Positions 2,435-30,780 of a stretch of 32,985 nucleotides of DNA are shown one piece after another. The notes under the pieces were generated by a model. That model was not told the DNA's origin. It made no database searches and saw only the letters and a list, made by a program, of their open reading frames with translations. Every line of letters starts with the position of its first letter. Position 1 is the stretch's first letter. The position numbers were made by a program, and so were the translations under genes. The DNA is taken from assembly GCA_019449555.1 (NCBI GenBank), contig JAGRPN010000373.1, forward strand, positions 1 to 32,985. Reading direction: 5' to 3'. Source of the stretch: Ramlibacter sp. GTDB lineage: Bacteria > Pseudomonadota > Gammaproteobacteria > Burkholderiales > Burkholderiaceae_C.

Positions 2435-2449
2435 CCCCAACCGATCAAG

Positions 2450-3082: not shown

Positions 3083-3085
3083 GGC

Positions 3086-5110: not shown

Positions 5111-5120
5111 CGCATGCGGC

Positions 5121-6503: not shown

Positions 6504-6570
6504 GAGCCAGGGCGATTCTCACCGATTGCGCACGAAGCCAATGGATGAGTTGCCGGAACAACGGTCCGAC

Positions 6571-6607
6571 GCGACAAGTTGTCGCGACCCGCGCGACAAC
6601 TTGTCGC
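6571..6607. promoter_or_regulatory. tandem palindromes, probable enhancer (UAS) for the sigma-54 regulator
   Basis: Two perfect 15-bp palindromes are present: GCGACAAGTTGTCGC at 6571-6585 and GCGACAACTTGTCGC at 6593-6607. They share the half-site GCGACAA and differ only in the central base. Their centres are 22 bp apart, about two helical turns, so two dimers would bind on the same face. They lie between the regulator start (6503) and a -24/-12 promoter about 70-100 bp downstream, the usual geometry for NtrC-type activators. Binding by the neighbouring regulator is an inference. Confidence 0.75.
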
Positions 6608-6671
6608 AGCGGGCAGGGGTGTTGCCATGCAACAAACAAGCGTCGCTGAGGCACGTGTGCGCCGGAACCGA

Positions 6672-6687
6672 TGGCATGCTTTCTGCT
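6672..6687 (+). promoter_or_regulatory. candidate sigma-54 (-24/-12) promoter of the fdh operon
   Basis: TGGCATGCTTTCTGCT has the required GG-N10-GC spacing and matches most positions of the TGGCACG-N4-TTGCW consensus. Transcription would begin near 6698, giving a leader of about 100 bases before the first gene at 6797. A sigma-54 activator is encoded next door and paired palindromes sit upstream, which together support the call. Confidence 0.65.
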
Positions 6688-6796
6688 GAGGCCGATGCTC
6701 CGTGTTTGTCTGGTTGCGCACGCACTTGACGGGCGTTACATTCGAGCGCCCCAAGTCGTTGAGTCCTCATCCGAGGGGACTATCAGGAGACCAGAC

Positions 6797-7003
6797 ATGA
6801 GCCAGCCGAAGAGCAAGCTTTCGCGCAGACAGCTTTTTGCAGGCGCAGGCACGGCAGGCGCCGTTGCCGCGGCCGCCAGCCTGCTGCCGGGCGCGGTGCA
6901 GCAACCGGTCGTCACCCCCGAAGCCAAGGAGCCACCCGCACGCGGCGGCGGCTACCAGCTCACCGATCACGTCAAGCGGTATTACAAGAGCACCCTCGTT
7001 TAA
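6797..7003 (+). CDS. small Tat-signal protein of formate dehydrogenase regions
   Basis: 68 residues. The N-terminus carries a twin-arginine motif (SRRQLF) followed by an alanine/glycine-rich hydrophobic stretch. The C-terminus reads GGGYQLTDHVKRYYKSTLV, which fits the Y-x-x-T-x-H-V-x-x-Y-Y signature of the family described as 'formate dehydrogenase region TAT target' (TIGR02811). The ATG at 6797 is chosen because AGGAG lies 8 bases upstream; a longer in-frame extension to 6671 would destroy the Tat signal. It is the first gene after the sigma-54 promoter, 23 bases before fdhA. Members of the family always sit beside fdh genes. The function is unknown; a role in FDH export or assembly is a guess. 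Confidence 0.9.
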   Translation: MSQPKSKLSRRQLFAGAGTAGAVAAAASLLPGAVQQPVVTPEAKEPPARGGGYQLTDHVKRYYKSTLV

Positions 7004-7026
7004 CGCCCACATCGGGAGAGTCCTCC

Positions 7027-9996
7027 ATGTTGCTGACCAAAAAGACGGGCGCCGGCCAGGCCGGTGCGCGTTCGCAGTTCGTTCATAGCCTGCAGCGCGG
7101 CCTGTCACGCGCGCTGCCCACCATGGACCGGCGCGCGTTCCTGCGCCGCTCGGGCCTCGGCGTGGGCGTGGGCATCGCGGCCTCTTCGCTGGCACTGGTC
7201 AAGAAGGCCAAGGCGGCCGACGGCACCCAGCCCGCCACCGGGCAGGGCAACATCGAGGTGAAGCGCACGGTGTGCACGCACTGCTCGGTCGGCTGCGCCA
7301 TCGACGCGGTGGTCGAGAACGGCGTGTGGGTGCGCCAGGAGCCTGTGTTCGATTCGCCGTTGAACCTGGGCGCGCATTGCGCCAAAGGCGCGGCGATCCG
7401 CGAGCATGGCCACGGCGAGTTCCGGCTGCGCTACCCGATGAAGCTGGTGAACGGCAAGTACGAGCGCATCAGCTGGGATACGGCCCTGAACGAGATCAGC
7501 GCGAAGATCCTCGAGCTGCGCAAGGCCAGCGGGCCGGATGCGATCTACTGGATCGGCTCCTCCAAGCACAGCAACGAGCAGTCGTACCTGATGCGCAAGT
7601 TCGTGAGCCTGTGGGGCAGCAACAACTGCGACCACCAGGCGCGCATCTGCCACTCCACCACGGTGGCCGGTGTGGCGAACACATGGGGCTACGGCGCCAT
7701 GACCAATTCGTACAACGACATGCAGAACAGCAAGTGCGCGTTGTACATCGGCTCGAACGCCGCCGAAGCGCACCCGGTGAGCATGCTGCACATGCTGCAC
7801 GCGAAGGAAAACGGCACGAAGATGATCGTGGTCGATCCGCGCTTCACCCGCACCGCGGCCAAGGCCGACGAATACGTGCGCATCCGCTCGGGCTCGGACA
7901 TCCCGTTCCTGTTCGGCCTGCTGTACCACGTGTTCAAGAACGGATGGGAGGATCCGAAGTACATCCACGACCGGGTCTATGGCATGGACGAGGTCAGGGC
8001 CGACGTGATGGCCAAGTGGACGCCCGACAAGGTTGAAGAGGCGTGCGGCGTGCCCGAGGCGCAGATGGCGAGGGTCGCCGAGATGATGGCGAAGAACCGC
8101 CCCTCGACGCTCGTGTGGTGCATGGGCCAGACCCAGCATTCGATCGGCAACGCGATGGTGCGCGCCTCGTGCATCGTGCAATTGGCGCTGGGCAACGTGG
8201 GCGTGCCGGGCGGCGGTGCGAACATCTTCCGCGGCCACGACAACGTGCAGGGCGCAACCGACATCGGCCCGAACCCGGATTCGCTGCCCGGCTACTACGG
8301 CATCGTCGAAGGATCGTGGCGCCACTTCGCCAAGGTCTGGAACGTCGATTACGACTGGATCAAGGGCCGCTTCGCCAGCCCGGCGATGATGAGCAAGCCA
8401 GGCATCACCGTGTCGCGCTGGATCGACGGCGTGCTGGAAAAGAACGAGCTGATCGACCAGGACTCGAACCTGCGAGCGGTGGTGTACTGGGGCCACGCAC
8501 CCAATTCGCAAACGCGCGGCCTGGAGATGAAGCGGGCAATGGACAAATTGGACCTGCTGGTCGTGGTGGACCCGTATCCGTCGGCCACTGCCGCCATGGC
8601 CGCGATGCCAGGCAAGCCGGAAGACCTGAACCCGAATCGCGCCGTGTACCTGCTGCCGGCCGCGACCCAGTTCGAGACCAGCGGGTCCGTGACTGCCTCC
8701 AACCGGTCGCTGCAATGGCGCGAGAAGGTGATCGAGCCGCTGTGGGAAAGCCGCACCGACCAGATGATCATGTACCAGCTGGCGGACAAGCTGGGCTTCG
8801 GCAAGGAGCTGGTCAAGAACTTCAAGATGCAGAAAGTGAAGGGCATGGACGAACCCATGCCCGAGGAAATCCTGCGCGAAGTCAACAAATCGTGCTGGAG
8901 CATCGGCTACACGGGCCAGAGCCCGGAGCGGCTGAAGGCGCACATGAAGAACATGGCGGCTTTCGACGTCAAGACGCTCAGGGCCAAGCCGGGAGTCAAG
9001 GACAAGGAAACCGGGTACGACCTGACCGGCGACTATTTCGGCCTGCCGTGGCCTTGCTTCGGCACCCCGGAACTCAAACATCCCGGCACCCACGTCCTTT
9101 ACAACACGTCCCAGCACGTGATGGACGGCGGCGGCAACTTCCGCGCGAACTTCGGTGTGGAGCGCAACGGCAAGAACCTGCTGGCGGAGGACGGCTCGGC
9201 GAGCAAGGGTGCCGACATCCAGACCGGCTATCCCGAGTTCGACCATGTGCTGATGAAGAAGCTCGGCTGGTGGGACGAACTCACCGACGTCGAGAAGGCG
9301 GCGGCCGAAGGCAAGAACTGGAAGACCGATTCGTCGGGCGGGATCATCCGCGTCGTGATGAAGAACCACGGCTGCTACCCCTTCGGCAATGCCAAGGCGC
9401 GCGCGGTGGTGTGGAACTTTCCCGACGGCATCCCCCAGCACCGCGAGCCGATCTACAGCACGCGGCCCGACCTGGTGGCCAAGTACCCGTCGCACGATGA
9501 CAAGAAGGCGTTCTGGCGGCTGCCCACGCTGTACAAGACGCTGCAGCAGAAGAACGTCACCGACAAGGTGGCGGAAAAATATCCGCTGATCCTCACCTCT
9601 GGGCGGCTGACCGAATTCGAAGGGGGCGGGGAGGAAACGCGCTCCAACCCCTGGCTGGCCGAATTGCAGCAGGAAGCCTTCGTCGAGATCAACCCGAAGT
9701 CGGCCGCCGATCGCGGCATCAAGCAGGGCGATCGCGTGTGGCTGATGACGCCGACCGGCGCGCGGCTGAACGTGCAGGCACTGGTCACCGAACGCGTGGG
9801 CCCCGACACCTGCTGGATGCCATTCCACTTCTCCGGGCGCTGGCAGGGCACCGACTTGCTGCCGTACTACCCGAGCGGCGCGGCGCCGGTGGTGCGCGGC
9901 GAGGCGGTGAACACCGCGACGACGTACGGCTACGACAGCGTCACCATGATGCAGGAAACCAAGACGACGATCTGCAACGTCGAGCGCGCGGCATAA
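7027..9996 (+). CDS. fdhA: formate dehydrogenase, molybdenum/tungsten catalytic subunit
   Basis: 989 residues. A twin-arginine signal (DRRAFLRRSG) near residue 34 indicates export with bound cofactor to the periplasmic side. The [4Fe-4S] ligands follow in the C-x2-C-x3-C-x27-C arrangement (VCTHCSVGC ... AHCAKGA). The active-site segment QARICHSTTVAGVANTWGYGAM aligns with the selenocysteine loop of E. coli FdnG. Here the residue is cysteine 208 (TGC codon), followed by the conserved histidine 209, so it is a Sec-independent enzyme. The remainder is a molybdopterin bis-MGD oxidoreductase fold with its C-terminal dinucleotide-binding domain. It oxidises formate to CO2 and passes electrons to FdhB. 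It is followed by fdhB after 10 bases. The metal, Mo or W, cannot be told from the sequence. Confidence 0.96.
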   Translation: MLLTKKTGAGQAGARSQFVHSLQRGLSRALPTMDRRAFLRRSGLGVGVGIAASSLALVKKAKAADGTQPATGQGNIEVKRTVCTHCSVGCAIDAVVENGVWVRQEPVFDSPLNLGAHCAKGAAIREHGHGEFRLRYPMKLVNGKYERISWDTALNEISAKILELRKASGPDAIYWIGSSKHSNEQSYLMRKFVSLWGSNNCDHQARICHSTTVAGVANTWGYGAMTNSYNDMQNSKCALYIGSNAAEAHPVSMLHMLHAKENGTKMIVVDPRFTRTAAKADEYVRIRSGSDIPFLFGLLYHVFKNGWEDPKYIHDRVYGMDEVRADVMAKWTPDKVEEACGVPEAQMARVAEMMAKNRPSTLVWCMGQTQHSIGNAMVRASCIVQLALGNVGVPGGGANIFRGHDNVQGATDIGPNPDSLPGYYGIVEGSWRHFAKVWNVDYDWIKGRFASPAMMSKPGITVSRWIDGVLEKNELIDQDSNLRAVVYWGHAPNSQTRGLEMKRAMDKLDLLVVVDPYPSATAAMAAMPGKPEDLNPNRAVYLLPAATQFETSGSVTASNRSLQWREKVIEPLWESRTDQMIMYQLADKLGFGKELVKNFKMQKVKGMDEPMPEEILREVNKSCWSIGYTGQSPERLKAHMKNMAAFDVKTLRAKPGVKDKETGYDLTGDYFGLPWPCFGTPELKHPGTHVLYNTSQHVMDGGGNFRANFGVERNGKNLLAEDGSASKGADIQTGYPEFDHVLMKKLGWWDELTDVEKAAAEGKNWKTDSSGGIIRVVMKNHGCYPFGNAKARAVVWNFPDGIPQHREPIYSTRPDLVAKYPSHDDKKAFWRLPTLYKTLQQKNVTDKVAEKYPLILTSGRLTEFEGGGEETRSNPWLAELQQEAFVEINPKSAADRGIKQGDRVWLMTPTGARLNVQALVTERVGPDTCWMPFHFSGRWQGTDLLPYYPSGAAPVVRGEAVNTATTYGYDSVTMMQETKTTICNVERAA

Positions 9997-10006
9997 GGGG
10001 AACACG

Positions 10007-10624
10007 ATGGCAAGAATGAAATTCATCTGCGACTCCGAGCGCTGCATCGAGTGCAACGGCTGCGTGACCGCGTGCAAGAACGAGCACGAGATCCCGTGGG
10101 GGGTCAACCGGCGGCGCGTCGTCACGCTCAACGACGGCATTCCCGGCGAGCGTTCGATCTCGGTGGCCTGCATGCACTGCTCGGACGCGCCTTGCATGGC
10201 GGTGTGCCCGGTCAACTGCTTCTACCGCACCGACGAGGGCGTGGTGCTGCACGACAAGGATGTTTGCATCGGCTGCGGTTATTGCAGCTATGCGTGCCCG
10301 TTCGGCGCGCCGCAGTTCCCCTCGTCCGGCCACTTCGGCGTGCGCGGCAAGATGGACAAGTGCACGTTCTGCGCCGGCGGGCCCGAAGCCAACGGCTCGC
10401 AGGCCGAGTTCGAGAAGTACGGGCGCAACCGGCTGGCCGAAGGCAAATTGCCGGCCTGCGCCGAGATGTGCTCGACCAAGGCGCTGATCGGAGGCGACGG
10501 CGACGTGGTCGCCGACATCTTCCGCAACCGCGTCATCAAGCGCGGCAAGGGCGCCGAAGCCTGGGGCTGGGGCACGGCATACGGTTCGAAGCAGGCGGGG
10601 CAGCCTGGGGGAGCGAAATCATGA
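10007..10624 (+). CDS. fdhB: formate dehydrogenase iron-sulfur (beta) subunit
   Basis: 205 residues with four ferredoxin-type cysteine groups: CIECNGCVTAC near the start, CMHCSDAPCMAVCP around 55-70, CIGCGYCSYACP around 87-98, and a split group (CTFC ... CAEMC) towards the C-terminus. This is the four-[4Fe-4S] layout of the electron-transfer subunits of formate dehydrogenases and other molybdopterin enzymes. It shuttles electrons from FdhA to the cytochrome b subunit. No membrane anchor helix is present, unlike E. coli FdnH, which matches the short 'FDH3' beta subunits. Its stop overlaps the start of the next gene (ATGA). Confidence 0.95.
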   Translation: MARMKFICDSERCIECNGCVTACKNEHEIPWGVNRRRVVTLNDGIPGERSISVACMHCSDAPCMAVCPVNCFYRTDEGVVLHDKDVCIGCGYCSYACPFGAPQFPSSGHFGVRGKMDKCTFCAGGPEANGSQAEFEKYGRNRLAEGKLPACAEMCSTKALIGGDGDVVADIFRNRVIKRGKGAEAWGWGTAYGSKQAGQPGGAKS

Positions 10625-10845
10625 AGCACACGTTGATCTTCGTGGCTGCCGTGCTTGCGTTGGCGGCCTGCACCGAAAAGCCGCAAACGATCGGCAGCAA
10701 TGCCAAAGTAGATGCGGCCGCCTACCAGGGCGCCACCCCGGTCTTCAGCGTCCCCGGCTGGAAGCCGGGCGACAAGGTCAGCTGGGAGCAGCAGCTCAAG
10801 ACCCGCCTCCAGAATGGCCAGAATGACTACAACCGGGTGAACTGA
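10621..10845 (+). CDS. small lipoprotein within the fdh operon
   Basis: 74 residues. A hydrophobic N-terminal segment ends in a lipobox (LAAC, cysteine near residue 17), so the product should be a lipid-anchored envelope protein. The mature part contains PVFSVPGWKPGDKVSWEQQL and ends in QNDYNRVN. The start codon overlaps the fdhB stop as ATGA, which indicates translational coupling and a role tied to FDH. I do not recognise a characterised family. It might help dock the periplasmic FdhAB onto the membrane subunit, but that is speculation. Confidence 0.8.
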   Translation: MKHTLIFVAAVLALAACTEKPQTIGSNAKVDAAAYQGATPVFSVPGWKPGDKVSWEQQLKTRLQNGQNDYNRVN

Positions 10846-10855
10846 AAGGCCGACG

Positions 10856-12055
10856 ATGCTGCGTCCATTGCTTCTGAGTTTCATCCTCGCCGCGAGCTCG
10901 GCTGCGTTCGCCCAGAACAAGGCCCCGGAGGATTTGCCGCCCCCGCCCGCCGGCGCGCCGGGCGCGCAAGGAGGCATCCAGAGCCAGAACATTTTCGACG
11001 TGAAGCCGGAGGTCAAGCCTGACGCGAGTTCCGACCCGAATTACCTCAAGCAGAACAATGCCGAGCGCAACAAGGTCCAGCCCGGCAACAACGCGCCGAT
11101 GTGGCGCGGCGTCGCCTCGGGCAGGGAAGGCTACAGCAGCCTGCCCAAGTCCCAGGCGCCGGAAGCCGGCATCCTGATCCAGGCCCCGGTGCAGTACCCG
11201 GGGTCGCGCATGACGACGGCCGGCGAAGCGTGGCGGCAGGTGCGCAACAACTGGATCGTTCCCTATGGTGGCGCGCTGTTCCTGATCGGTCTCGGTGCGT
11301 TGGCGATCTTCTTCTTCGGCAAGGGCCCTCTGGGCCACAGCGAAAACGAGGGGCGCGGCCGCAGGATCGAGCGCTTCACCCCATTCGAACGCTCGGCCCA
11401 TTGGGCCAACGCGATCGCTTTTTGCATTCTGGCGATTTCGGGGTTGGTGATGGCGTTCGGCAAGTTCTTCCTGCTCCCGGTCATGGGCTTGAGCCTGTAT
11501 GGCGGCCTGACCTACGTGCTCAAGAACCTGCACAACTTCGCGGGGCCTGTGTTTGCGGTGTCGCTCGTCATCGTGATCGTCACCTTCATCCGCGATGAGT
11601 TCCCCCAGAGTGGCGATCTCAGGTGGCTGCTTCGCATCGGCGGCGTGTTCAGCAAGTCGGGCGAAGAGCCGCCGTCGCACCGTTTCAATGCGGGCGAGAA
11701 GGTGGTGTTCTGGATCGGGGCGTTCGTGCTGGGCATCATCGTGGTCGGTTCCGGGCTGGTGATGGACATGCTCATCCCCAACGTCGTGTACGAGCGCGAC
11801 ACGATGCAGGTGGCCAACATGATTCACGGGGTGGCCGCGGTATTGATGGCGACGATCACCTTATTGCACATCTACCTGGGCACGATCGGGATGCGCGGCG
11901 CCTACAAGGCCATGCGTACCGGCTACGTGGACGAAGAATGGGCCCGGGAGCACCACGCGTACTGGTACGAGGACGTCCAGGCCGGCCGGATTCCGGCGCA
12001 GCGCAGCCAGCCGCTCACGGCGGCCGAGGATGTCGAGACGGCGCGGCCGGCGTGA
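10856..12055 (+). CDS. fdhC: formate dehydrogenase cytochrome b (gamma) subunit
   Basis: 399 residues. A cleavable signal peptide (about 1-19) precedes a proline-rich periplasmic stretch of about 110 residues. Five probable membrane helices follow, including segments near 138-155, 183-200, 222-240, 283-305 and 320-345. Candidate heme b ligands are the histidines in RSAHWANA, NLHNFAGP, MIHGVAAV and LLHIYLG. This corresponds to the cytochrome b556 subunit that accepts electrons from FdhB and reduces membrane quinone. The long N-terminal extension with signal peptide is typical of betaproteobacterial FDH gamma subunits and unlike E. coli FdnI. It begins 10 bases after the lipoprotein gene. Confidence 0.94.
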   Translation: MLRPLLLSFILAASSAAFAQNKAPEDLPPPPAGAPGAQGGIQSQNIFDVKPEVKPDASSDPNYLKQNNAERNKVQPGNNAPMWRGVASGREGYSSLPKSQAPEAGILIQAPVQYPGSRMTTAGEAWRQVRNNWIVPYGGALFLIGLGALAIFFFGKGPLGHSENEGRGRRIERFTPFERSAHWANAIAFCILAISGLVMAFGKFFLLPVMGLSLYGGLTYVLKNLHNFAGPVFAVSLVIVIVTFIRDEFPQSGDLRWLLRIGGVFSKSGEEPPSHRFNAGEKVVFWIGAFVLGIIVVGSGLVMDMLIPNVVYERDTMQVANMIHGVAAVLMATITLLHIYLGTIGMRGAYKAMRTGYVDEEWAREHHAYWYEDVQAGRIPAQRSQPLTAAEDVETARPA

Positions 12056-12080
12056 GCGACAACGCAGGAGAAAACAACTC

Positions 12081-12542
12081 ATGAAAACAGTTCTGGTATC
12101 CGGTGTGTTGGCGGCCGCTTGCGGCCTGGTGCTGGCCAAATTGCCGCCGCCCGACGATGCGGCCAAGGCCAAGGCGGCCGAAACCACCGCGAAGGCCGCG
12201 TGGCAGGCAAAGATCGATGCGTTTCAGCTCTGCAAGGCACAGGACCGGGTCGCGGCGGTTTACATGAAGAACGCCGGCAAGTCGGCGAAACCCGCAGCGG
12301 CCGCCCCGGCGCCCGCGGCCGCCGCCGCTTCCTCTGCCGCTGCCGCGGCAGCTCAGCCGGCCGCTTCCGGCACGCCTGTGGTGGCCAAGCCGCCGCCGCC
12401 ATGTGCCGACCCGGGCCCCTTCGCTTACAACCCGCCGGAGCAGAAACCGCTCGAGACCTCCGGTGCGCATTCGCCCAGCGGCACGGCGGCGAGCCCGCCC
12501 AGCGTCAAGCCCCACTCGGCCGAAATGAGCAAGAAGCCCTGA
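12081..12542 (+). CDS. secreted Ala/Pro-rich protein at the end of the fdh operon, function unknown
   Basis: 153 residues. The N-terminus (MKTVLVSGVLAAACGLVLAK) looks like a signal peptide. The mature part has a predicted helical segment with one cysteine (QLCKAQDRVAAVY), then an alanine-rich low-complexity linker, then a second cysteine in PPCADPGPFAYNPP. The two cysteines could form a disulfide. The ATG at 12081 is preceded by GGAG at a good distance, 25 bases after fdhC. The position suggests a periplasmic accessory of the FDH complex. I do not recognise a family with known function. Confidence 0.75.
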   Translation: MKTVLVSGVLAAACGLVLAKLPPPDDAAKAKAAETTAKAAWQAKIDAFQLCKAQDRVAAVYMKNAGKSAKPAAAAPAPAAAAASSAAAAAAQPAASGTPVVAKPPPPCADPGPFAYNPPEQKPLETSGAHSPSGTAASPPSVKPHSAEMSKKP

Positions 12543-12555
12543 CACCGGTATTCCT

Positions 12556-12589
12556 CCCCCCTCCGGGAGCGGGGGCCGAACAAGGCCCC
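12556..12589 (+). other. GC-rich competing hairpins between fdh operon and fdhD
   Basis: The interval can fold as CCCCC pairing with GGGGG (12556-12575), or alternatively as GGGGCC-gaacaa-GGCCCC (12572-12589). No T-tract follows, so it is not a clear intrinsic terminator. It may slow transcription between the structural genes and fdhD. Confidence 0.3.
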
Positions 12590-12629
12590 AGAAGCAGCCG
12601 CCGAGGAGTTTTGCGGTAGTCTTGCACCC

Positions 12630-13490
12630 ATGCGCCTGCCTTTCCTGACTGAAGCGCGCGCCCCGCTGACGCGTGAGATCGCGGCCGTGAATGAGCACGG
12701 CGAGGAAGGGGGCGTCTCGATCCCCGCCGAGCGGCCATTGACCGTCTACGTGGACCGGCGTGAACTGGTGACCCTGATGACCCTGGGCGCCCGGCCGGAG
12801 TGGCTGGTGCTGGGCTACCTGCGCAATCAGCGGCTGGTGCGCGCAGTGGACGAGGTCGAGTCGGTCACCGTCGACTGGGAGGTCGGGGCGGCCGCAGTGA
12901 AAACACGTTCCGGTATCGAGCGGATCGAGGAGCGCACCGCCCGGCGTGTGGTCACGACCGGCTGCGGCCAGGGCAGCGTGTTCGGCGGCCTGATGGACGA
13001 GATCGACGCGATCAGCCTGCCCGATGCGGCCATCACGCAGTCTCAGCTGTACGGGATCGTCAATGCGATCCGGCTCCAGGAGAGCACCTACAAATCCGCC
13101 GGCTCGGTCCACGGCTGCGCGCTGTTCAGCGGCGAGGAGATGCTCCTGTTCGTCGAGGACGTGGGCCGCCACAACGCCATCGACACGATCGCGGGCTGGA
13201 TGTGGCTGCAGGAGACTGCGCCCGAGGACCGGGCGAGCGCCGGCGCGCCGCTGGTTTTCTACACCACCGGCCGCTTGACCAGCGAGATGGTCATGAAGTC
13301 GGCGCAGATGGGGGTGCCGATCGTCGTCTCGCGCAGCGGCATCACGCAGATGGGCCACGACATCGCGCTGCGACTGGGCCTGTGCGCCATCGGCCGCGCG
13401 GCCAACCGCCGCTTCCTGTGCTACACGGCGCCTCATCGCTTGCAGCTGCAACCCGAGCTGGCCGGACCGAAGTTGCGCGCCGTCGCCTGA
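12630..13490 (+). CDS. fdhD: FdhD, sulfurtransferase for formate dehydrogenase cofactor
   Basis: 286 residues, the usual FdhD length. Recognisable segments are RPLTVYVD, the TTGCGQGS motif (cysteine 112), HGCALF, the VEDVGRHNAIDT signature and YTTGRLTSEMVMKSAQMG. FdhD passes sulfur from a cysteine desulfurase to the bis-MGD cofactor and is required for FDH activity. Many FdhD proteins have two cysteines in a C-x-x-C loop, whereas this one has a single cysteine there (CGQG). It lies 87 bases downstream of the fdh structural genes on the same strand. Confidence 0.95.
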   Translation: MRLPFLTEARAPLTREIAAVNEHGEEGGVSIPAERPLTVYVDRRELVTLMTLGARPEWLVLGYLRNQRLVRAVDEVESVTVDWEVGAAAVKTRSGIERIEERTARRVVTTGCGQGSVFGGLMDEIDAISLPDAAITQSQLYGIVNAIRLQESTYKSAGSVHGCALFSGEEMLLFVEDVGRHNAIDTIAGWMWLQETAPEDRASAGAPLVFYTTGRLTSEMVMKSAQMGVPIVVSRSGITQMGHDIALRLGLCAIGRAANRRFLCYTAPHRLQLQPELAGPKLRAVA

Positions 13491-23339: not shown

Positions 23340-23394
23340 GGCCAGCCCGGTACACGACTCGCCCCGCCCCACACCGCCACACAGGTTGAACCCC

Positions 23395-25596
23395 ATGGAA
23401 GCCGATACCCAAGCGCATGTTGCATTTTTCCTGACCGGCCGGCGGCCGGGCGAATATCTCGACGCTGTGGACGGCCTGGACCTGCGTCCGGCGCTGTTCG
23501 CGGGCTATCGCGACCTCACGCCGCTGCGCTACGACTTCCCGCTCGTGCTCGAAGCCAAGGGCGCCGACCCGACCCGCGTGCAGTCGCTGTCGGGCCTGGT
23601 CGACAAGGCACTCGAAACCATCGCCAAGGGTGCCGACGCGGAGCGCATCCGCAAGCACGCTCTGCGGCTCGAGCAGGAAATCCGCGCGTTGGTGGCGGGC
23701 GGCGAATCGGGCACGCTCTCGGCGCTGCTGGAGCGCGCCGCCGGCAAGATCGGATCGGCCGATGCTTCATTCCAGGACAGCCTGCGGCGGCTGCGGCCGG
23801 CCATCAAGGCCGATGGCCCGGTGGTGGACTGCGACGCGGCACTGCCCCGGCGGCTGCTGCACCATGTGTGGGAAGCGGCGCAGGCCGAGAAGGCCGCGCG
23901 GTTCGGCAAGAAGCTCGAGCGGCTGGTCCTCAAGCTGTCGGCCGTCCTTCAATCCGATTTCGAGCGCTCGCCGCGCGGCCTGGCGGCCGATCGGCTGCAG
24001 GCCTCCGTCGGGGAGGGGTTCGCCGAGGCCTTCGACTTCGAAGCCATGTCGCGCGTATTGGTCAAGTCGCAGCTGTATGAAGGCATGCCGGCGGCGCGCA
24101 AGCGGCGCATCACGGACCTGCTGCGGGTGCTGAAGTCCCAGCGCTTCCTTGCCGGCGGCGATGCAGCGTCCAAGCTGTACGGGTTCACGTTCGACAGCTG
24201 CGGCGCCGCGCTGAAAGCCTATCGCGAGCGGCTGCCGCGACTGGTGGAAGTGGCGCGCGCCATCGTGATCGCCGAACTCGAGATCGACGGCGAGTACAAC
24301 TCGTCCCGGCACGACCCCATGTTCGAAGCGTACGGCGATGCCGGGCTGGAGCCGCAGGAACTCGCGGAGTTTCCCGATTACCTGGTGTGCGTGGACGCGG
24401 CGAAGTTAGACGACCAGGAGAACGCTCGCCTGATGGAAATCCTTTCATCCGGCCTGCCGATCAAGGTTCTATTGCAGATCGACGATCTCGCCGGGGATTC
24501 CGCGGCCGAACAGGGCAGCTACGCCAGCGCCCTGCGCAGCCGGCAGCTCGCCAGCCTGGCCATGGGCTTGAACGAGGTGTATGTGCTGCAGTCGAGCGCA
24601 TCCAACCTGTTCCAGTTTCGCGAGCGCGTGCTCAAGGGAGTGGCTTATCGCGGGCCGGCGTTGTTCAGCGTGTACTCCGGCGCGAGCGCCAAGGCCAGCG
24701 GACTGGCGCCCTACCTGATGGCCGCCGCGGCGATGGAATCGCGCGCCTTTCCTGCGTTTACCTACGATCCGTCCGCGGGCCCGAACTGGGCGGCACGGTT
24801 CTGCCTGGAGGCCAACTCGCAGGTGGAGCTCGACTGGCCGGTGCAGGGTTTCGCCTACGAGGACGAGGAGCACCAGAGCGTCTCCCAGGATATCGCCTTC
24901 ACGCTCGTCGATTTTCTCGCCACCGACCGTCGCTATGCGAACCATCTCGCGCGCGTGCCGCGCGAGAAGTGGAACGGCAGCATGATTCCTGTCGACGAGT
25001 CGCTGGCGCGCGATCGCAAGGGCTTGCCCGACAAGGTGCCCAGCCTGCTGATGATCGATGCCGACAACAAATTGCAGAAAGTCATCGTCGACCAGAGCCT
25101 GATCCGGCAGGCCAGCCGCTGCCGCGAGATGTGGCACAGCCTGCAGGAGCTGGGCGGCATCCACAACTCGCACGCCGAAGCACTGCTGGCGCGCGAGCAG
25201 AAGGCATGGCAGGAGCGCACGCGCCAGGAATCCGAAGCTGCGCGACCGGCCGCACCCGCTGCAGCCGATGCGTCGCCCGGGGCGGCGGCTGCGAGCCCCG
25301 CGCCGGCGGCTGCGGCCGCCGAAGCCGTGGAGGAGCCGCAGCGCTCGCCGGACGAGGCGTACATCGAGACCGCACGGTGTTCGACCTGCAACGAGTGCAC
25401 GCAACTCAACGGCAAGATGTTCGCCTACGACGGCAACAAGCAGGCCTACATCGCCGACGTCAACGCCGGAACCTATGCCCAGCTGGTGGAGGCCGCCGAG
25501 AATTGCCAGGTGGCCATCATCCACCCGGGCAAACCGCGCAACCCTGATGAGCCGGGGCTCGCCGAGTTGCTCAAGCGGGCCGAACCTTTTCTCTGA
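23395..25596 (+). CDS. large PFOR-like protein with C-terminal single-cluster ferredoxin domain
   Basis: 733 residues, of no family with a function known to me. Residues 1-370 are mostly helical, with no recognised motif. Residues about 380-470 (SLAMGLNEVYV, YRGPALFSVYSG, FPAFTYDPSAG) recall the C-terminal domain of pyruvate:ferredoxin oxidoreductase, but the GDG...N thiamine motif is absent. Then come a conserved-looking block (QELGGIHNSHAEALL), an Ala/Pro linker (about 620-650), and a ferredoxin-like tail with C662, C665, C668 and C704 (CSTCNEC ... NCQVAIIHPGKP). That tail suggests one [4Fe-4S] cluster. The ATG at 23395 is chosen; a TTG at 23386 is possible. Position after korB suggests a ferredoxin or docking partner for KorAB/NfnAB. 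Its 3' end overlaps the convergent hemerythrin gene. Confidence 0.7.
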   Translation: MEADTQAHVAFFLTGRRPGEYLDAVDGLDLRPALFAGYRDLTPLRYDFPLVLEAKGADPTRVQSLSGLVDKALETIAKGADAERIRKHALRLEQEIRALVAGGESGTLSALLERAAGKIGSADASFQDSLRRLRPAIKADGPVVDCDAALPRRLLHHVWEAAQAEKAARFGKKLERLVLKLSAVLQSDFERSPRGLAADRLQASVGEGFAEAFDFEAMSRVLVKSQLYEGMPAARKRRITDLLRVLKSQRFLAGGDAASKLYGFTFDSCGAALKAYRERLPRLVEVARAIVIAELEIDGEYNSSRHDPMFEAYGDAGLEPQELAEFPDYLVCVDAAKLDDQENARLMEILSSGLPIKVLLQIDDLAGDSAAEQGSYASALRSRQLASLAMGLNEVYVLQSSASNLFQFRERVLKGVAYRGPALFSVYSGASAKASGLAPYLMAAAAMESRAFPAFTYDPSAGPNWAARFCLEANSQVELDWPVQGFAYEDEEHQSVSQDIAFTLVDFLATDRRYANHLARVPREKWNGSMIPVDESLARDRKGLPDKVPSLLMIDADNKLQKVIVDQSLIRQASRCREMWHSLQELGGIHNSHAEALLAREQKAWQERTRQESEAARPAAPAAADASPGAAAASPAPAAAAAEAVEEPQRSPDEAYIETARCSTCNECTQLNGKMFAYDGNKQAYIADVNAGTYAQLVEAAENCQVAIIHPGKPRNPDEPGLAELLKRAEPFL

Positions 25597-26074
25597 GCGC
25601 GCGCGCGGCGACGGCCCGGGTCCACAGTTCGCGGGACTGCGGATAGACCACCGTCTCCTCGAGGGCGATGTGGCCCTTGCACAGGTCCACGAAGACCTGC
25701 ACGCCGTGCAGGAACTCCGCGGGGTCGGGCCAGTTGTTGCCGGAACCGATGGCGCTCAATTGGGGCGCCAGCTCGATCCAGTTTTCCTCGATCCAGCCAT
25801 GATCCTGCTGCAGGCTTTCCACCGTCGCCGTCAGCGCGGGATCGCCCAGCGCGAGCAGCGGCGGGAAAACGTTCTTTTCCTCCAGCCGGTGGTGCTCGCG
25901 CGACGTGCCTGAAAAGAAGGTTTCGATCGCGCGGGCACGCTCCTGCGCGGCGTTGTCGAAACCGTGGGTCTCGATCCGGCGCGCGAGCTCGGTCAGCGCT
26001 TCCAGTTGCGCCAGGATCTGTTGGTGGCATTCATCGAGCGCCTCGAAGGAGACGGGCTCGGTAACGACGCGCAT
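25571..26074 (-). CDS. hemerythrin-like (HHE) domain protein
   Basis: 167 residues. The four-helix hemerythrin signature is present: ECHQQIL near the start, REHHRLEEKNVFP around 60-72, QDHGWIEENW around 90-99, and CKGHIALEETVVYP around 131-144. These supply the histidine and carboxylate ligands for a di-iron site. Such proteins bind O2, NO or iron and serve in storage, sensing or protection. Its 3' end overlaps the convergent upstream ORF by 26 bases (25571-25596). It follows frdD on the same strand but beyond a strong terminator, and has its own FNR-like site, so it is probably a separate unit with related regulation. Confidence 0.88.
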   Translation of the reverse strand: MRVVTEPVSFEALDECHQQILAQLEALTELARRIETHGFDNAAQERARAIETFFSGTSREHHRLEEKNVFPPLLALGDPALTATVESLQQDHGWIEENWIELAPQLSAIGSGNNWPDPAEFLHGVQVFVDLCKGHIALEETVVYPQSRELWTRAVAARALREKVRPA

Positions 26075-26204: not shown

Positions 26205-26234
26205 AAAAAAGCCGCGCGGGCAGCGCGGCTTTTT
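26205..26234 (-). terminator. intrinsic terminator after frdD
   Basis: A 7-bp GC arm (GCCGCGC, 26211-26217) pairs with GCGCGGC (26223-26229) around the loop GGGCA. The arms are flanked by an A-run (26205-26210) and a T-run (26230-26234), so it can end transcripts in either direction. It lies 18 bases past the frdD stop and separates frd from the hemerythrin gene. Confidence 0.88.
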
Positions 26235-26251: not shown

Positions 26252-26608
26252 CTAGAAGCCGATCGACAGCAGGCTGGCGGCCGCGACGACCGTGATCACG
26301 AACGCGCTGCCATAGCACGCCAGCTTGGCCACCGGGCCGGGATGGATGCCCACGTCGTGCAGCGTGACCTTGATGCGGTGCGCGGCATGCCACGCGAACA
26401 GGAAGATGATCACGAACAGGAAGCCCTTGCCGAGCCAGTTCTGCGCGAACGCGTGCGCGCGCGGATAACTCAGCAAGTCGGGCCCGAACGGCCAGCCGAG
26501 CGGCGCGGCCAGGCCGGTGATGAACACCAGCATGGTGCCGAAGAGGGCGGCCAGCATGCCGCCGCCGCCGAACATGAGCCAGAAGATGGGTGCGTTCGAT
26601 CGCTTCAT
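26252..26608 (-). CDS. frdD: fumarate reductase membrane anchor subunit D
   Basis: 118 residues with three membrane helices (about 15-38, 62-82 and 93-115). The KRSNAPIFW N-terminus, the LSYPRAHAFAQN segment and AAHRIKVTLHDVGIH follow E. coli FrdD closely. With FrdC it anchors FrdAB and binds quinol; E. coli-type enzymes lack heme b. The start codon overlaps the frdC stop (ATGA). The small basic KRS N-terminus supports this start. In this operon the quinol is likely to be rhodoquinol, see rquA. Confidence 0.93.
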   Translation of the reverse strand: MKRSNAPIFWLMFGGGGMLAALFGTMLVFITGLAAPLGWPFGPDLLSYPRAHAFAQNWLGKGFLFVIIFLFAWHAAHRIKVTLHDVGIHPGPVAKLACYGSAFVITVVAAASLLSIGF

Positions 26609-27015
26609 TTCTTCCACCACCAGGTCAATGCGAACATCAGGACCGACACCACGATGGTGGCGATCCAGCCGGTGCGCGTGATGGCCGATGCGCTGACGCG
26701 CCGGCCGCCGAAATACATCATGGGCATCGTCTTGGGCATGATCTCGAACCAGCTGCGCGCGTGCACGGCGAACGACACCAGCAGCACGACGTGCAGCAGG
26801 ATGGAGCCGGGTGACTTGAGCGCCTCCAGCCAGCCGTTCCAGGCGGCCTCGCCCTGCGCCAGGCGAGTCACGCCGACGGCCAGCACGATCGCGTAGATGG
26901 CCACCGCGAACGCGGTTGCTTCGCGCAGCATGTAGGCCATGAAGAAGGGATCGCGCCGCCACCAGCCTTGCATCGGCCGGACATACGGTCGCCTCACTGC
27001 GGCTTTGCCGTTCAT
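26605..27015 (-). CDS. frdC: fumarate reductase membrane anchor subunit C
   Basis: 136 residues with three membrane helices (about 30-50, 68-88 and 110-130). RRPYVRPMQGWWRRDPFF and YMLREATA match the E. coli FrdC N-terminus, including the glutamate of MLRE that takes part in quinol oxidation in E. coli. HARSWFEIMPKTMP is also family-typical. Start and stop overlap frdB and frdD by ATGA, so the three genes are translationally coupled. Confidence 0.94.
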   Translation of the reverse strand: MNGKAAVRRPYVRPMQGWWRRDPFFMAYMLREATAFAVAIYAIVLAVGVTRLAQGEAAWNGWLEALKSPGSILLHVVLLVSFAVHARSWFEIMPKTMPMMYFGGRRVSASAITRTGWIATIVVSVLMFALTWWWKK

Positions 27016-27764
27016 TTGGACGCCCCTTTCGGTGACAGGAATCGCAGGAAATAGTCTTTGGCGCTGTTCACCTTGTTCTGGTTCACGGCGTTCGCAGGGT
27101 CCACGTGCTTGGGACAGACTACGGAGCAGTAGCCCACTGCGGAGCAGTCCCACACGCCTTCCTCCGTGCTCATGATTTCCATCCGCTCGTCGCGCGCGCC
27201 GTCGCGCGAATCGACGTTGTAGCGGTGCGCCAGGGACAGCACGCCCGGCCCAATGAAGTCCGGATTGAGGCCGAACTGCGGGCAGGCGGCGTAGCACAGC
27301 ATGCAGTTGATGCAGGAGCTGTATTGCTCGAACTGTTCGAGCTGCTCCGGCGTCTGCAGGTATTCGCCCTGGTCGAGCGTGCGCGGCTTCTTGGGGATGA
27401 TGTAGGGCTTGATCCCTTCGAGCTTCTTGACGAAGCCGTCCACGCTCACCACCAGGTCGCGCTCGATCGGGAAGTGAGCGAGCGCCTCGATGCGCACCGG
27501 CCCGGGCAGCAGGTCGCGCAGGAAGGTCTGGCACGACAGCTTGGGCGTGCCGTTGACCATCATGCCGCAGCTGCCGCAGATCGCCATCCGGCAGGACCAG
27601 CGGAAGCTGAGCGTGCCGTCGATGTCGTCCTTGATGTGCTGCAGCCCTTGCAGGACCGACATGTCGTCGGTGAATGGAACGTAGTAGCTCTGCCAGACCG
27701 GCTCATCCTCCTGCTCGGGCCGGTAGCGCAAGACCTGGATCTCGATTCGTTTGCTTTCAGGCAT
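27012..27764 (-). CDS. frdB: fumarate reductase iron-sulfur subunit
   Basis: 250 residues. The N-terminal [2Fe-2S] domain has the cysteines of SCRMAICGSCGMMVNG and the following SCQTFL. The C-terminal domain holds the [4Fe-4S] and [3Fe-4S] sites (CINCMLCYAACP and VGYCSVVCPKHVDP). The sequence tracks E. coli FrdB, including IERDLVVSVDGF and PQFGLNPDFIGP, which distinguishes it from SdhB. It conducts electrons from quinol in FrdCD to FAD in FrdA. The start overlaps the frdA stop by eight bases. Confidence 0.96.
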   Translation of the reverse strand: MPESKRIEIQVLRYRPEQEDEPVWQSYYVPFTDDMSVLQGLQHIKDDIDGTLSFRWSCRMAICGSCGMMVNGTPKLSCQTFLRDLLPGPVRIEALAHFPIERDLVVSVDGFVKKLEGIKPYIIPKKPRTLDQGEYLQTPEQLEQFEQYSSCINCMLCYAACPQFGLNPDFIGPGVLSLAHRYNVDSRDGARDERMEIMSTEEGVWDCSAVGYCSVVCPKHVDPANAVNQNKVNSAKDYFLRFLSPKGASK

Positions 27765-29550
27765 GGACTGCTTCCTCCTTCGCTTTGCGGTCGGCCTCTT
27801 CGCCGGCCGCCCCGTAAGCGCGTGTGCCCGGCGCCGAGGTGGTGATCTTGACCGGGCCGTACGCGATCTGCGGCGCATCCCCGCCGCGATAATAGGCGAG
27901 CGAATGCTTCAGGAAGTTCACGTCGTCCCGCGCCTCGAATCCGTCCAGCCGCTGATGCGAGCCGCGCGACTCGCGCCGGTTGAGCGCCGAGTGCGCCATC
28001 GCCTGCGCGACATCGAGCAGGAAACCCAGCTCGATCGCGACCAGCCAGTCGGTGTTCCAGCCCTTGGAATGGTCGTCCACCTGCACCTTCTTGTAGCGCT
28101 GCTTGAGTTCCAGCAGCTTGTCGCAGGTCGACTGCATGCTTGACGCGGTGCGATAGATACCGCAGCCGTCTTCCATGCTCTTGCCCATTTCACGGCGCAG
28201 CGAGGCGATGCGTTCGGTGCCGTCCGAGCGTGCCACGATGGCGAGCGCCTTGCGCTGCGCTTCCTCGGCAAGCTTCAGGAGGGTCCCCTCCTTGCCATGC
28301 GATACCGTCTTGCCGTAGGCGGCGGCCTGGACGCCGGCGACCTTGCCGAACACGATCAGTTCGGTCAGCGAGTTCGATCCGAGGCGGTTGGCGCCGTGGA
28401 TGCCTACGCTGGAGCATTCGCCCACCGAGTACAGGCCTGGCAGGGGCGCGGCCGTGTTGCCGTCGGCGGTGATGCCGCCCATCGAGTAGTGAACCCCGGG
28501 CAGCACGGGAATCGGCGCCTTGGCGGGATCGACGCCGAGGTATTCGACCGACAACTCATAGATCAGCGGCAGCCGTTCACGCAATTTCTTTTCACCCAGG
28601 TGACGCAAGTCGAGATGAACCACGTCGCCGTGCGGCCCGGCGATCGTGCGGCCCTTCTGCTTCTCGTGCCAGAAGGCCTGGCTCAACCGGTCGCGCGGGC
28701 CCAATTCCATCGCCTTGTTGCGCGGTGTCGGCTCGGCCGGGCCCAGGCCGTAATCCTGCAGGTAGCGGTAGCCGTCCTTGTTGAGGAGGAATCCGCCTTC
28801 GCCGCGGCACGCTTCGGTGAACAGCAGGCCGGTGCCCGGCATGCAGGTGGGGTGGTACTGGACGAACTCCATGTCACGCAGCGGCACGCCGTGGCGGTAC
28901 GCCAGCGCCATGCCGTCGCCCGTTACGATGCCGCCGTTGGTGTTCTCGCGGAACACGCGGCCGGCGCCCCCGGTGGCGATGATCACCGACTTGGCCTGGA
29001 TGAGGCGGAACTCGCCGGTCGCGATCTCGATCGCGAGGACGCCCTGCACGCGGCCCTCATCGACGAGGAGCTCGGCGCAGAAATGCTCGTCGAAGCGCTT
29101 GATCGATGGGTACTTGATGGAGGTCTGGAACAGCGTGTGCAGCATGTGGAAGCCGGTCTTGTCGGCCGCAAACCACGTGCGTTCGATCTTCATGCCGCCA
29201 AAGGCGCGCACGTTCGCGCGGCCGTCGGCCGTGCGGCTCCACGGACAGCCCCAGTGCTCCATCTGCACCATCTCTTCATGGGCCTGGCCCACGAAGAACT
29301 CGACCACGTCCTGCTCGCACAGCCAGTCGCCACCGGCCACCGTATCGTGGAAGTGCGCCTCCAGGCTGTCGTGCGACTGGGTGACAGCCGCCGCGCCGCC
29401 TTCCGCCGCCACGGTGTGGCTGCGCATGGGGTACACCTTGGAAATGAGGGCAATCGTCAGTGACGGATCGGCCTCGGCCACCGCGATAGCCGCCCGAAGG
29501 CCTGCTCCGCCGGCGCCGACGATCGCCACATCGGCCTTGAAGACATCCAT
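27757..29550 (-). CDS. frdA: fumarate reductase flavoprotein (catalytic) subunit
   Basis: 597 residues, close to E. coli FrdA (602). The dinucleotide motif is VGAGGAGLRAA at 11-21. The covalent FAD ligand is histidine 45 in MRSHTVAAEGG. Substrate and catalytic segments are FVQYHPT, TEACRGEGG, MELGPRDRLSQAFWHE (catalytic arginine) and HGANRLGSNSL. The overall likeness is to the enterobacterial quinol:fumarate reductase rather than to SdhA. It reduces fumarate to succinate at the cytoplasmic face. The ATG at 29550 is preceded by GAAGAGG. The gene lies 32 bases after rquA and begins a coupled frdABCD series. Quinol:fumarate reductases can run in reverse, so succinate oxidation is not excluded. 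Confidence 0.97.
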   Translation of the reverse strand: MDVFKADVAIVGAGGAGLRAAIAVAEADPSLTIALISKVYPMRSHTVAAEGGAAAVTQSHDSLEAHFHDTVAGGDWLCEQDVVEFFVGQAHEEMVQMEHWGCPWSRTADGRANVRAFGGMKIERTWFAADKTGFHMLHTLFQTSIKYPSIKRFDEHFCAELLVDEGRVQGVLAIEIATGEFRLIQAKSVIIATGGAGRVFRENTNGGIVTGDGMALAYRHGVPLRDMEFVQYHPTCMPGTGLLFTEACRGEGGFLLNKDGYRYLQDYGLGPAEPTPRNKAMELGPRDRLSQAFWHEKQKGRTIAGPHGDVVHLDLRHLGEKKLRERLPLIYELSVEYLGVDPAKAPIPVLPGVHYSMGGITADGNTAAPLPGLYSVGECSSVGIHGANRLGSNSLTELIVFGKVAGVQAAAYGKTVSHGKEGTLLKLAEEAQRKALAIVARSDGTERIASLRREMGKSMEDGCGIYRTASSMQSTCDKLLELKQRYKKVQVDDHSKGWNTDWLVAIELGFLLDVAQAMAHSALNRRESRGSHQRLDGFEARDDVNFLKHSLAYYRGGDAPQIAYGPVKITTSAPGTRAYGAAGEEADRKAKEEAVHA

Positions 29551-29582
29551 CTGCTGGCCTCTTCTTTCTTGGTTTGGAACGG

Positions 29583-30314
29583 TTAGCGGATCAGCACCAG
29601 TTTCTGGTACAGCCCGCCGTAATAGGTTTCCTTGGCGATGGAAGCCGGCCGGCCCTGCCGTGGCAGGAACGCCTCGATCTCGTTGTCCCAGAGATCCATC
29701 GCATAGGGCTCGAGCTTGCGGAACACGCCCGTCATCAGCAGTCGCAGCGGATGCATGCGCACCGGCCGGTGATAGTCCACGATGACGATCCTGCCGCCCG
29801 GCTTCACGACGCGCAGCGCCTCGGCCAGCGTGGCTCGCCGTACCGCCTCCGGCTGCTCGTGCAGCAGGAAAAACAGCAGCACCTGCTCGTAGCTGGCGTC
29901 CGGGCACGCCAGCGAAGAGGAGTCGCCTTGCAGCAGCGCGACCCGATCGTCAACGGGCAGCTTCTTGCCCAGGTTCAGCAACTGGATCGGAAGGATGTCG
30001 ACCACGTCCAGGCCCGCGTCGGGCGCCAGGCGCGCGAGCAGCCTGGGCGTCAGGTTGCCGTAGACGCAGGCCACCTGGAGCGTCCTGCCCGTGACTGTCT
30101 TGCCGAGCTCGGCAAGTGCCGCGTCGCGCAAGCGGCCGTAGTTGCCGAACAGGATCAGGTTGACCAGCCACTCGCGCTCGAACAACTGCACGGCGTTCGG
30201 GTGCACGTAAGCCCACCAGTACACCTGCTCGAGATAGCGGGGAATGGGCAGCAGCGTGCGAGCGGGAGCCGGTGCAGGCGCCGGAAAGACGTCTGCGATG
30301 GGCGGCGGTGGCAT
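29583..30314 (-). CDS. rquA: RquA, rhodoquinone biosynthesis enzyme
   Basis: 243 residues with a class I SAM methyltransferase-like fold. Segments that mark RquA are YWWAYVHP (32-39), WLVNLILFGNYGRLRDAALAEL (about 49-70), VACVYGNLTP (81-90), VLLFFLLHEQP (145-155) and KETYYGGLYQK at the C-terminus. The usual glycine-rich SAM motif is replaced by V-Y-G-x-L-T, a known hallmark of RquA. RquA converts ubiquinone to rhodoquinone, replacing a methoxy group by an amino group, with SAM as amino donor in published work. It is membrane-associated chemistry although no clear membrane helix is visible. The gene sits between a cytochrome c gene and frdA on the same strand, consistent with supply of the low-potential quinol used by FrdABCD. 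A plain methyltransferase is a much less likely reading. Confidence 0.92.
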   Translation of the reverse strand: MPPPPIADVFPAPAPAPARTLLPIPRYLEQVYWWAYVHPNAVQLFEREWLVNLILFGNYGRLRDAALAELGKTVTGRTLQVACVYGNLTPRLLARLAPDAGLDVVDILPIQLLNLGKKLPVDDRVALLQGDSSSLACPDASYEQVLLFFLLHEQPEAVRRATLAEALRVVKPGGRIVIVDYHRPVRMHPLRLLMTGVFRKLEPYAMDLWDNEIEAFLPRQGRPASIAKETYYGGLYQKLVLIR

Positions 30315-30352: not shown

Positions 30353-30688
30353 CTACTGCGCCAGGATCCACTGCACCAGGTTCTTGACCTGGGCCGGATC
30401 CTTGTTGCTGACCGTCTTGTGCTCTTCCTCGCTGCCGTCGTCGAACTTGACCTTGGGCCCGGTCGTGATCAGGGTCGTGATTTTCGCCTCGCCGTCGGCT
30501 TTGCCCTTGTACTTGGCGGCGGTCTTCTTGAACGAGGGACCTTTCTTGTCCTTGTCCACCGAGTGGCACTTGGTGCAACCGTTGTCCTTGATCATCTTGT
30601 TGGCGGCGTCGGCGTCGACCGCGGCGCCGGCGGGCAGCGAGAACGCGAACACCGTGGCTGCGACTGCGAGGAGGGGGGTGACCTTCAT
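30353..30688 (-). CDS. small periplasmic monoheme c-type cytochrome
   Basis: 111 residues. A signal peptide (about 1-22, cleaved near AGA-AV) precedes a single CTKCH heme site (C38, C41, H42). The C-terminal helix (PAQVKNLVQWILAQ) is that of class I cytochromes. No methionine occurs after the heme site. The only other histidine is H90 in SEEEHKTV, so bis-histidine heme ligation is the simplest prediction, implying a lower potential than Met-ligated relatives. AGGAG precedes the ATG. The gene is 38 bases upstream of rquA and just downstream of an FNR-type box, so it is likely the first gene of the cyt-rquA-frd transcript. Its partner is unknown. Confidence 0.9.
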   Translation of the reverse strand: MKVTPLLAVAATVFAFSLPAGAAVDADAANKMIKDNGCTKCHSVDKDKKGPSFKKTAAKYKGKADGEAKITTLITTGPKVKFDDGSEEEHKTVSNKDPAQVKNLVQWILAQ

Positions 30689-30766: not shown

Positions 30767-30780
30767 TTGACTAATGTCAA
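30767..30780 (-). promoter_or_regulatory. FNR/DNR-type box upstream of the cytochrome c-rquA-frd operon
   Basis: TTGACTAATGTCAA is a perfect TTGAC inverted repeat with a 4-base spacer, identical in both half-sites to the box at 17697. A minus-strand -10-like CATGAT lies at 30741-30736, which puts the box centre roughly 41-45 bases before the start. The cytochrome gene starts at 30688. The rest of the 219-base gap (30689-30907) shows no gene. Confidence 0.72.

Follow-up and report, generated by a model that had tools for sequence, protein, structure and literature searches.

An rquA gene between mtrB-cytC and frdABCD in Ramlibacter: a probable rhodoquinone-dependent fumarate reductase unit beside part of an extracellular electron conduit

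Background

Why should a gene for making rhodoquinone (RQ) lie between the genes of a fumarate reductase (FRD) and a gene of an extracellular electron conduit? The question is raised by contig JAGRPN010000373.1 of Ramlibacter sp. (assembly GCA_019449555.1), the whole of which, 32,985 bases (C214 of genome G000 in our set), was analysed and is called the window below. Its minus strand carries, in this order, mtrB, cytC, rquA, frdA, frdB, frdC and frdD, then a hairpin (Table 1), with gaps of 219 bases between mtrB and cytC, 38 between cytC and rquA and 32 between rquA and frdA. The original prediction had placed rquA 32 bases upstream of an E. coli-type frdABCD set on the same strand, with coupled frd starts, and both points hold (the overlaps are 8 bases for frdA/frdB, 4 for frdB/frdC and 4 for frdC/frdD, the last an ATGA with the frdD ATG at 26608). 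Its gene row was right for rquA-frdABCD and incomplete, in that cytC as a part of the row and mtrB before it went unmentioned. We think that cytC-rquA-frdABCD is probably an anaerobic, RQ-dependent fumarate unit that is joined to mtrCAB, with the RQ pool as the common hub.

Parts of this arrangement have been described before. Stairs 2018 (PMC5953543) found genes of complex II and other respiratory genes no further than 15 genes from rquA and suggested an operon; unlike the present study, its section on rquA names no gene order, no mtr genes and no FNR-type site. Baker 2022 (PMC8805035) described frdABCD, and also ccm genes, beside the mtrCAB of Group 4 in Betaproteobacteria, left the role of frd open and named menaquinone genes as a need of the recipient; rquA, UbiE and methyltransferase have no occurrence in its main text. 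The neighbourhood is of the same kind as ours. Our locus L046 comes from Caenimonas koreensis DSM 17982, which that paper mentions for its ccm genes, and our L051 is probably from Aquincola sp. S2 (same strain name). No report of the union of rquA, frdABCD and mtr genes was found in the open-licence literature, figures and supplements being outside the scope of that search. The core, rquA by complex II genes, is a kind of arrangement already described; the union of the three parts appears to be new, and the extension of the row upstream into cytC and mtrB is added here.

Results

The first step is the identity of RquA, which the original prediction had assigned to this type and which is borne out both by the score against the curated family and by a quickly built tree of 102 RquA rows, the backbone of which is weak. 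The predicted VYGNLT and HEQP motifs are both present. A 20-row alignment shows no variation at the Y and G of VYG or at the H, E and P of HEQP; of the 102 rows, 74 have HEQP and 30 have VYGNL, so that the exact letters are common and not diagnostic. The same 20 rows show D106 and D131, 25 residues apart, to be invariant and at least 90% conserved. These were matched to D118 and D143, named for R. rubrum RquA (PMC9814641), by that spacing alone and without alignment. The window protein has an altered SAM (S-adenosylmethionine) motif I and, by this matching, the two SAM-site Asp. Two RquA types, told apart by C-VYG and AH-VYG, stand on long branches with full support, and the window protein is of the C-VYG type, on the 90-row side of the tree; Groups A and B of Stairs could not be matched to these two types. 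No rquA was matched at E 1e-15 in 72,556 plasmid records. The same Ramlibacter genome also encodes, at L116 (5709-6494 of G000:C415), an RquA-like protein of 262 aa whose N-terminal part includes a hydrophobic stretch; it scores 108 bits, under the cut-off of 175, and may form a branch of its own in the RquA family. Two rquA genes stand at separate places in the genomes of L049/L063 and of L072/L076, and in G203.

The second step is the quinone background. That the host makes ubiquinone only, as predicted, is borne out to the extent that MenD of the classical menaquinone route reaches at best 88.8 bits in its genome, under the cut-off of 244, and that MqnC of the futalosine route has no match there, a result resting on one marker per pathway in a genome of 5.1 Mb that is 96% complete (458 contigs, 3% contaminated). 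UbiU (565 bits) and UbiV (411 bits) are both above cut-off and encoded by adjacent genes; since they belong to the oxygen-independent ubiquinone route, the substrate of RquA can be made without oxygen. This agrees with a survey of Pseudomonadota in which RquA was found mostly in Betaproteobacteria, 73 of 84 cases having the oxygen-independent ubiquinone pathway and 5 menaquinone (PMC11707229). With potentials of -63 mV for RQ, +100 mV for ubiquinone and +30 mV for fumarate (PMC6529003), RQ would be the low-potential quinone of this host free of menaquinone markers.

The FRD itself is of the E. coli type (class D), a frdABCD set with anchors of the FrdC/FrdD type. FrdA, FrdB and FrdD pass equivalog models; FrdC is under its NCBIfam equivalog cut-off (103 vs 143 bits) and well above the Pfam threshold (143 bits, cut-off 24), and E. 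coli FRD (1KF6) is the best solved-structure match of FrdB, FrdC and FrdD. What the two enzymes have in common includes the four subunits, the FAD and substrate residues, and FrdC Glu29 and Trp86, FrdB Lys228 and FrdD Trp14, which we take to be quinone-site residues and which are all unchanged. The substrate residues listed in PMC10238741 are all kept in the window FrdA. Because the quinone-site residues compared with E. coli are unchanged, the window FRD looks fit for a low-potential quinol; E. coli FRD works best with menaquinol (PMC6529003), whereas the window genome has no menaquinone marker that we could find. The original prediction went further and supposed an adaptation to rhodoquinol. 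This part we do not retain, as no RQ-specific change was found among the residues compared (35 rquA-linked rows); FrdC Arg28 varies in three of these rows and FrdC His82 in one. The His that FrdD has in place of E. coli Cys77 was tried as an RQ marker and rejected: it occurs in all 35 linked rows, yet Aeromonas caviae, presumably a menaquinone user, also has His, and the six unlinked rows are split between three His and three Ser.

A separate succinate dehydrogenase (SDH) locus is present in the genome, with SdhA above cut-off (SdhC, SdhD, SdhB and the start of a following citrate synthase were recognised by eye from reading frames), and this would leave the FRD free to work reductively. At position 50 (Met counted) FrdA carries Glu, as does E. 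coli FrdA and as do all 39 fetched FrdA rows; the SdhA of the same genome has Gln there. When the anchors are paired crosswise with those of E. coli SDH (FrdD-SdhC E 9e-4, FrdC-SdhD E 4e-3), the window has His at both places of the SDH heme ligands, the straight pairing scoring worse (E 0.48 and 0.04). At the first of these places, in FrdD, E. coli FRD has Cys where the window has His, and the window FRD may bind heme b. At L115 (6868-10195, the end of G000:C108) a gene resembling that of cytochrome c oxidase subunit I (recognised by eye) is directly followed by a further frdB-frdC-frdD set, which lacks a preceding frdA and is cut inside frdD by the contig end.

Is the row peculiar to one contig? 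A scan with 20 RquA rows matched at least 575 loci, of which the best 80 were examined together with flanks of up to 10 kb per side. frdA occurs in 33 of the 80 and mtrB in 22, in several orders. Among the 33, rquA-frdA is a tandem in 23 (hosts include Ramlibacter, Caenimonas, Aquabacterium, Piscinibacter and Rubrivivax) and frdD-rquA in four (hosts include Competibacteraceae); frd lies four genes upstream in one, and the arrangement is convergent in four and divergent in one. Since the same-strand rquA-frdA tandem recurs in 23 of 80 fetched loci, isolates included, it is neither chance nor chimera. The gene frdA accompanies mtrB in 13 of the 22 mtrB loci, and in ten of these 13 mtrB, rquA and frdA follow one another on the same strand. 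The full row of the relatives reads omcA/mtrC-mtrA-mtrB-cytC-rquA-frdABCD, and kin of cytC stand at the same place in L035, L036, L038, L039, L040 and L046. In Rhodoferax ferrireducens RBP-1 (L039) two omcA/mtrC-type genes, mtrA, mtrB, cytC, rquA and frdABCD lie in a row, and in C. koreensis (L046) rquA lies between mtrB-cytC and frdA. The remaining nine mtrB loci (L049, L053, L066, L068, L070, L072, L075, L084 and L090) have no frdA and differ in gene order, most of them with cytC or NapC-type genes.

The window contig ends inside mtrB; in kin, genes for the decaheme MtrA and for MtrC/OmcA-type cytochromes stand upstream of this point. The MtrA-type cytochromes of the loci have 10 CXXCH in 24 of 25 called genes and nine in one short call. 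OmcA/MtrC-type genes, found in 12 mtrB loci (plus three in L077, without mtrB), have 10 CXXCH in 19 of 20, and the NapC/NirT-type genes of 13 loci have four in 11 of the 13, two short calls having three. Family models were run on one MtrA, two OmcA/MtrC and two NapC of these genes. Some neighbour genes in the rquA loci we read as ccm. In Herbaspirillum sp. ST 5-3 (L070, 3915-20334) four mtrA-mtrB pairs surround one rquA.

The form TTGAY-N4-RTCAA is, we assume, that of FNR-family sites. All seven mtrB-cytC-rquA-frdA loci, which are close kin (the window, L035, L036, L038, L039, L040 and L046), have such a palindrome, beginning 80-140 bases upstream of the cytC start as called. Of 72 rquA units 17 have a perfect site within 350 bases upstream, and of the 393 other units in these loci 25 do (Fisher 3e-5). 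Nine of 81 sets, the window included, were dropped from this count (rquA unplaced by the caller), and for a few units hardly any upstream sequence was available. In the window itself nine palindromes with up to two mismatches were counted (mean 3.65, reached by two of 100 shuffles), a slight excess, and the weight of the site rests on its position across loci, not on this count. As the site lies between mtrB and cytC, an oxygen-controlled transcript may start at cytC; FNR sites have been reported before ubiTUV genes (PMC11707229). A sigma-70 promoter scan found none (0.6 expected), and a terminator pattern scan gave no regional excess (5, mean 5.9).

Finally, co-occurrence was counted in 300 genomes of the order (rquA and MenD above cut-off, FrdC at least 119 bits, MtrB above 200 bits), with rquA in 28, FrdC in 10, MtrB in 28 and MenD in 15. 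Six genomes have rquA and FrdC where 0.9 are expected (Fisher 6e-5; 4e-4 without the Ramlibacter genome); rquA and MenD meet in one (expected 1.4), FrdC and MtrB in three (expected 0.9, p 0.06), FrdC and MenD in none. The 272 rquA-negative genomes hold FrdC in four cases and MtrB in 24. Among genomes with the RquA type of the window, FrdC is present in 37 of 50, MenD in one and MtrB in 40; nine of 27 other genomes bring MtrB to 49 of 77, a set that leaves out L108 as well as L063 and L076 (second loci of genomes already counted). The first 28 listed loci, L035-L062, were all taken and gave FrdC in 19 and MtrB in 23. The genomes of the fetched loci and the rquA-negative genomes of the order were drawn in different ways. 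In short, one RquA type is repeatedly linked with FRD, and a local link exists with Mtr genes, the excess of rquA with MtrB appearing in the fetched kin of the window type and not in the 300 genomes of the order. On the RquA tree (quick, with a weak backbone) parsimony gives 17 changes for frd adjacency and 12 for mtr adjacency, the labels including L057 and L062, which are weak MtrB matches (76 and 54 bits); an independent-pairs test of the two adjacencies had five supported pairs and gave no result.

Other genes lie in the window besides. Positions 332-13490, mostly on the plus strand, hold a formate dehydrogenase-like molybdoenzyme with Fe-S and cytochrome b561 subunits, FdhD, a NarJ-like chaperone and a sensor kinase. 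Genes for a 2-oxoacid oxidoreductase are on the strand opposite to the frd row; by the 2-oxoacid:acceptor oxidoreductase genes a 736-aa protein (23386-25596) has no NCBIfam or Pfam match at 1e-5. Just past the frdD hairpin, on the same strand, lies a gene for a hemerythrin-domain protein (25571-26074).

Table 1. Features of the gene row in the window, from the hairpin to the contig end
Feature	Position	Strand	Basis
Terminator-like hairpin behind frdD, A/U tract at stem base	26206..26234	minus	12-bp stem, -21.5 kcal/mol, z -3.7
frdD, membrane anchor, His where E. coli has Cys77	26252..26608	minus	PF02313 136 bits; 1kf6_D E 1.2e-22
frdC, membrane anchor, conserved quinone-site Glu	26605..27015	minus	PF02300 143 bits; 1kf6_C E 3.6e-22
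frdB, iron-sulfur subunit	27012..27764	minus	NF009051 401 bits (above cut-off); best PDB match 1kf6_B, E 5e-96
frdA, fumarate reductase flavoprotein, ATG at 29550	27757..29550	minus	TIGR01176 957 bits, cut-off 933
rquA, rhodoquinone biosynthesis, 243 aa	29583..30314	minus	NF038261 (curated equivalog) 295 bits, cut-off 175; tree of 102 RquA rows
cytC, monoheme cytochrome c, proposed transcript head	30353..30688	minus	PF00034; one CXXCH
FNR-family-type palindrome TTGACATTAGTCAA, 78 bases before cytC start	30767..30780	minus	Pattern scan
mtrB, outer-membrane barrel of MtrCAB/PioAB conduits, cut at contig end	30908..32983	minus	TIGR03509 486.5 bits, cut-off 240; PF11854

Discussion

An RQ-dependent FRD is the reading that fits rquA-frdABCD best. 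We infer that RQ is produced, that the unit is co-transcribed, how and in which direction electrons flow, and that the Mtr branch also uses RQ, in the following scheme. The cytC-rquA-frdABCD unit would be induced anaerobically; RquA would convert ubiquinone to RQ (about -63 mV), and FrdABCD would oxidise rhodoquinol and reduce fumarate. The unit being appended to an mtrCAB extracellular electron conduit, electrons could enter the RQ pool from dehydrogenases, or from outside via the conduit. FRD would be one exit from the pool, with fumarate as acceptor; the alternative exit would be a NapC/CymA-type quinol dehydrogenase and a cytochrome c leading to the conduit. The formate dehydrogenase-like and 2-oxoacid oxidoreductase genes of the window would fit as donors, with nothing that ties them to the unit. 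RQ is produced by Rhodoferax ferrireducens (PMC6529003), an iron-reducing species whose genome codes for MtrCAB (PMC8805035). In Shewanella, CymA hands quinol electrons to the Mtr conduit (PMC8805035), menaquinone-7 being its cofactor according to the title of a cited reference.

Several observations weigh against this scheme. The window shows no NapC/CymA gene, and the genome of the host was not searched for one. In the order, MtrB goes with MenD (5 of the 15 MenD genomes, expected 1.4, p 0.008), so that RQ is not the sole low-potential quinone found with MtrB, and some Mtr conduits of the order probably use menaquinone. Nor does RQ need an FRD of the FrdABCD type, since the six genomes with both rquA and FrdC all belong to the 12 of non-AH type, and none to the 16 of AH-VYG type (p 0.002, a value that treats genomes as independent, which they are not). 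Four of the ten FrdC genomes of the order lack both rquA and MenD above cut-off. FrdC is missing from 13 of the 50 rquA genomes (in L061 the contig stops inside frdA), the fetched kin are not independent, 50 of the 77 genomes were hand-picked, and many surveyed genomes are fragmented metagenome-assembled genomes (MAGs). L049, with mtrB-cytC-rquA and no frd, has no perfect palindrome between mtrB and cytC. As a separate observation, the four FrdC genomes without rquA or MenD (G142, G248, G271 and G299, with loci L126, L127, L125 and L128) carry E. coli-type frdABCD.

The alternative that survives best is that RQ serves fumarate respiration alone, mtrB adjoining it through a shared respiratory island with no common electron flow, which we consider unlikely though it deserves serious attention. 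The FNR-type site and the 219-base gap separate mtrB from cytC, and because the site lies between them mtrB is probably transcribed apart from cytC-rquA-frdABCD. The 300 genomes of the order show no excess of rquA with MtrB (4 of 28, expected 2.6, p 0.31), and 20 of the 33 frdA-bearing rquA loci have no mtrB in the locus. The nine rquA loci that hold mtrB without frdA, in various orders and mostly with cytC or NapC-type genes, point the other way. FrdC is encoded elsewhere in six of these nine genomes, so that their RQ may serve FRD; the genomes of L049, L053 and L084, all three MAGs, have no FrdC at all.

It has also been offered, for the mtrCAB-frdABCD of Group 4 in Betaproteobacteria (PMC8805035), that the frd genes supply succinate for heme synthesis or allow bidirectional flow through the conduit; rquA would then be incidental. 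This is improbable in our view, as it leaves unexplained why the gene for a low-potential quinone lies between mtr and frd. In both genomes of the order with mtrB next to frdC (G000 and G264) rquA intervenes, and mtr-rquA-frd recurs in ten fetched same-strand loci, but these were fetched by rquA. A bidirectional role is compatible with RQ as the hub. Least probable is that FrdABCD is a second SDH working with ubiquinone while another enzyme uses RQ: overexpressed E. coli FRD can replace SDH (PMC3290573), but the genome has its own SDH locus, FrdA has Glu (as in 39 of 39 fetched rows) where SdhA has Gln, FrdC goes with rquA, and an FNR-type site precedes cytC.

Conclusion

A broader proposal, which we put forward tentatively and as somewhat short of an even chance, is that RQ is the dedicated low-potential quinone of MtrCAB electron transfer in Betaproteobacteria lacking menaquinone, mtrCAB-cytC-rquA-frdABCD being a portable anaerobic module with a quinone supply of its own, which through RQ links extracellular electrons and fumarate in either direction. 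The finding joins two separate published observations, rquA near complex II and an frdABCD of open role beside betaproteobacterial mtrCAB. It also supplies counts that bear, for one RquA type, on the question asked in PMC11707229 of whether fumarate reductase and a low-potential quinone were gained together. Lastly, it makes testable which quinone feeds the Mtr conduits of menaquinone-free iron or manganese reducers or oxidisers.

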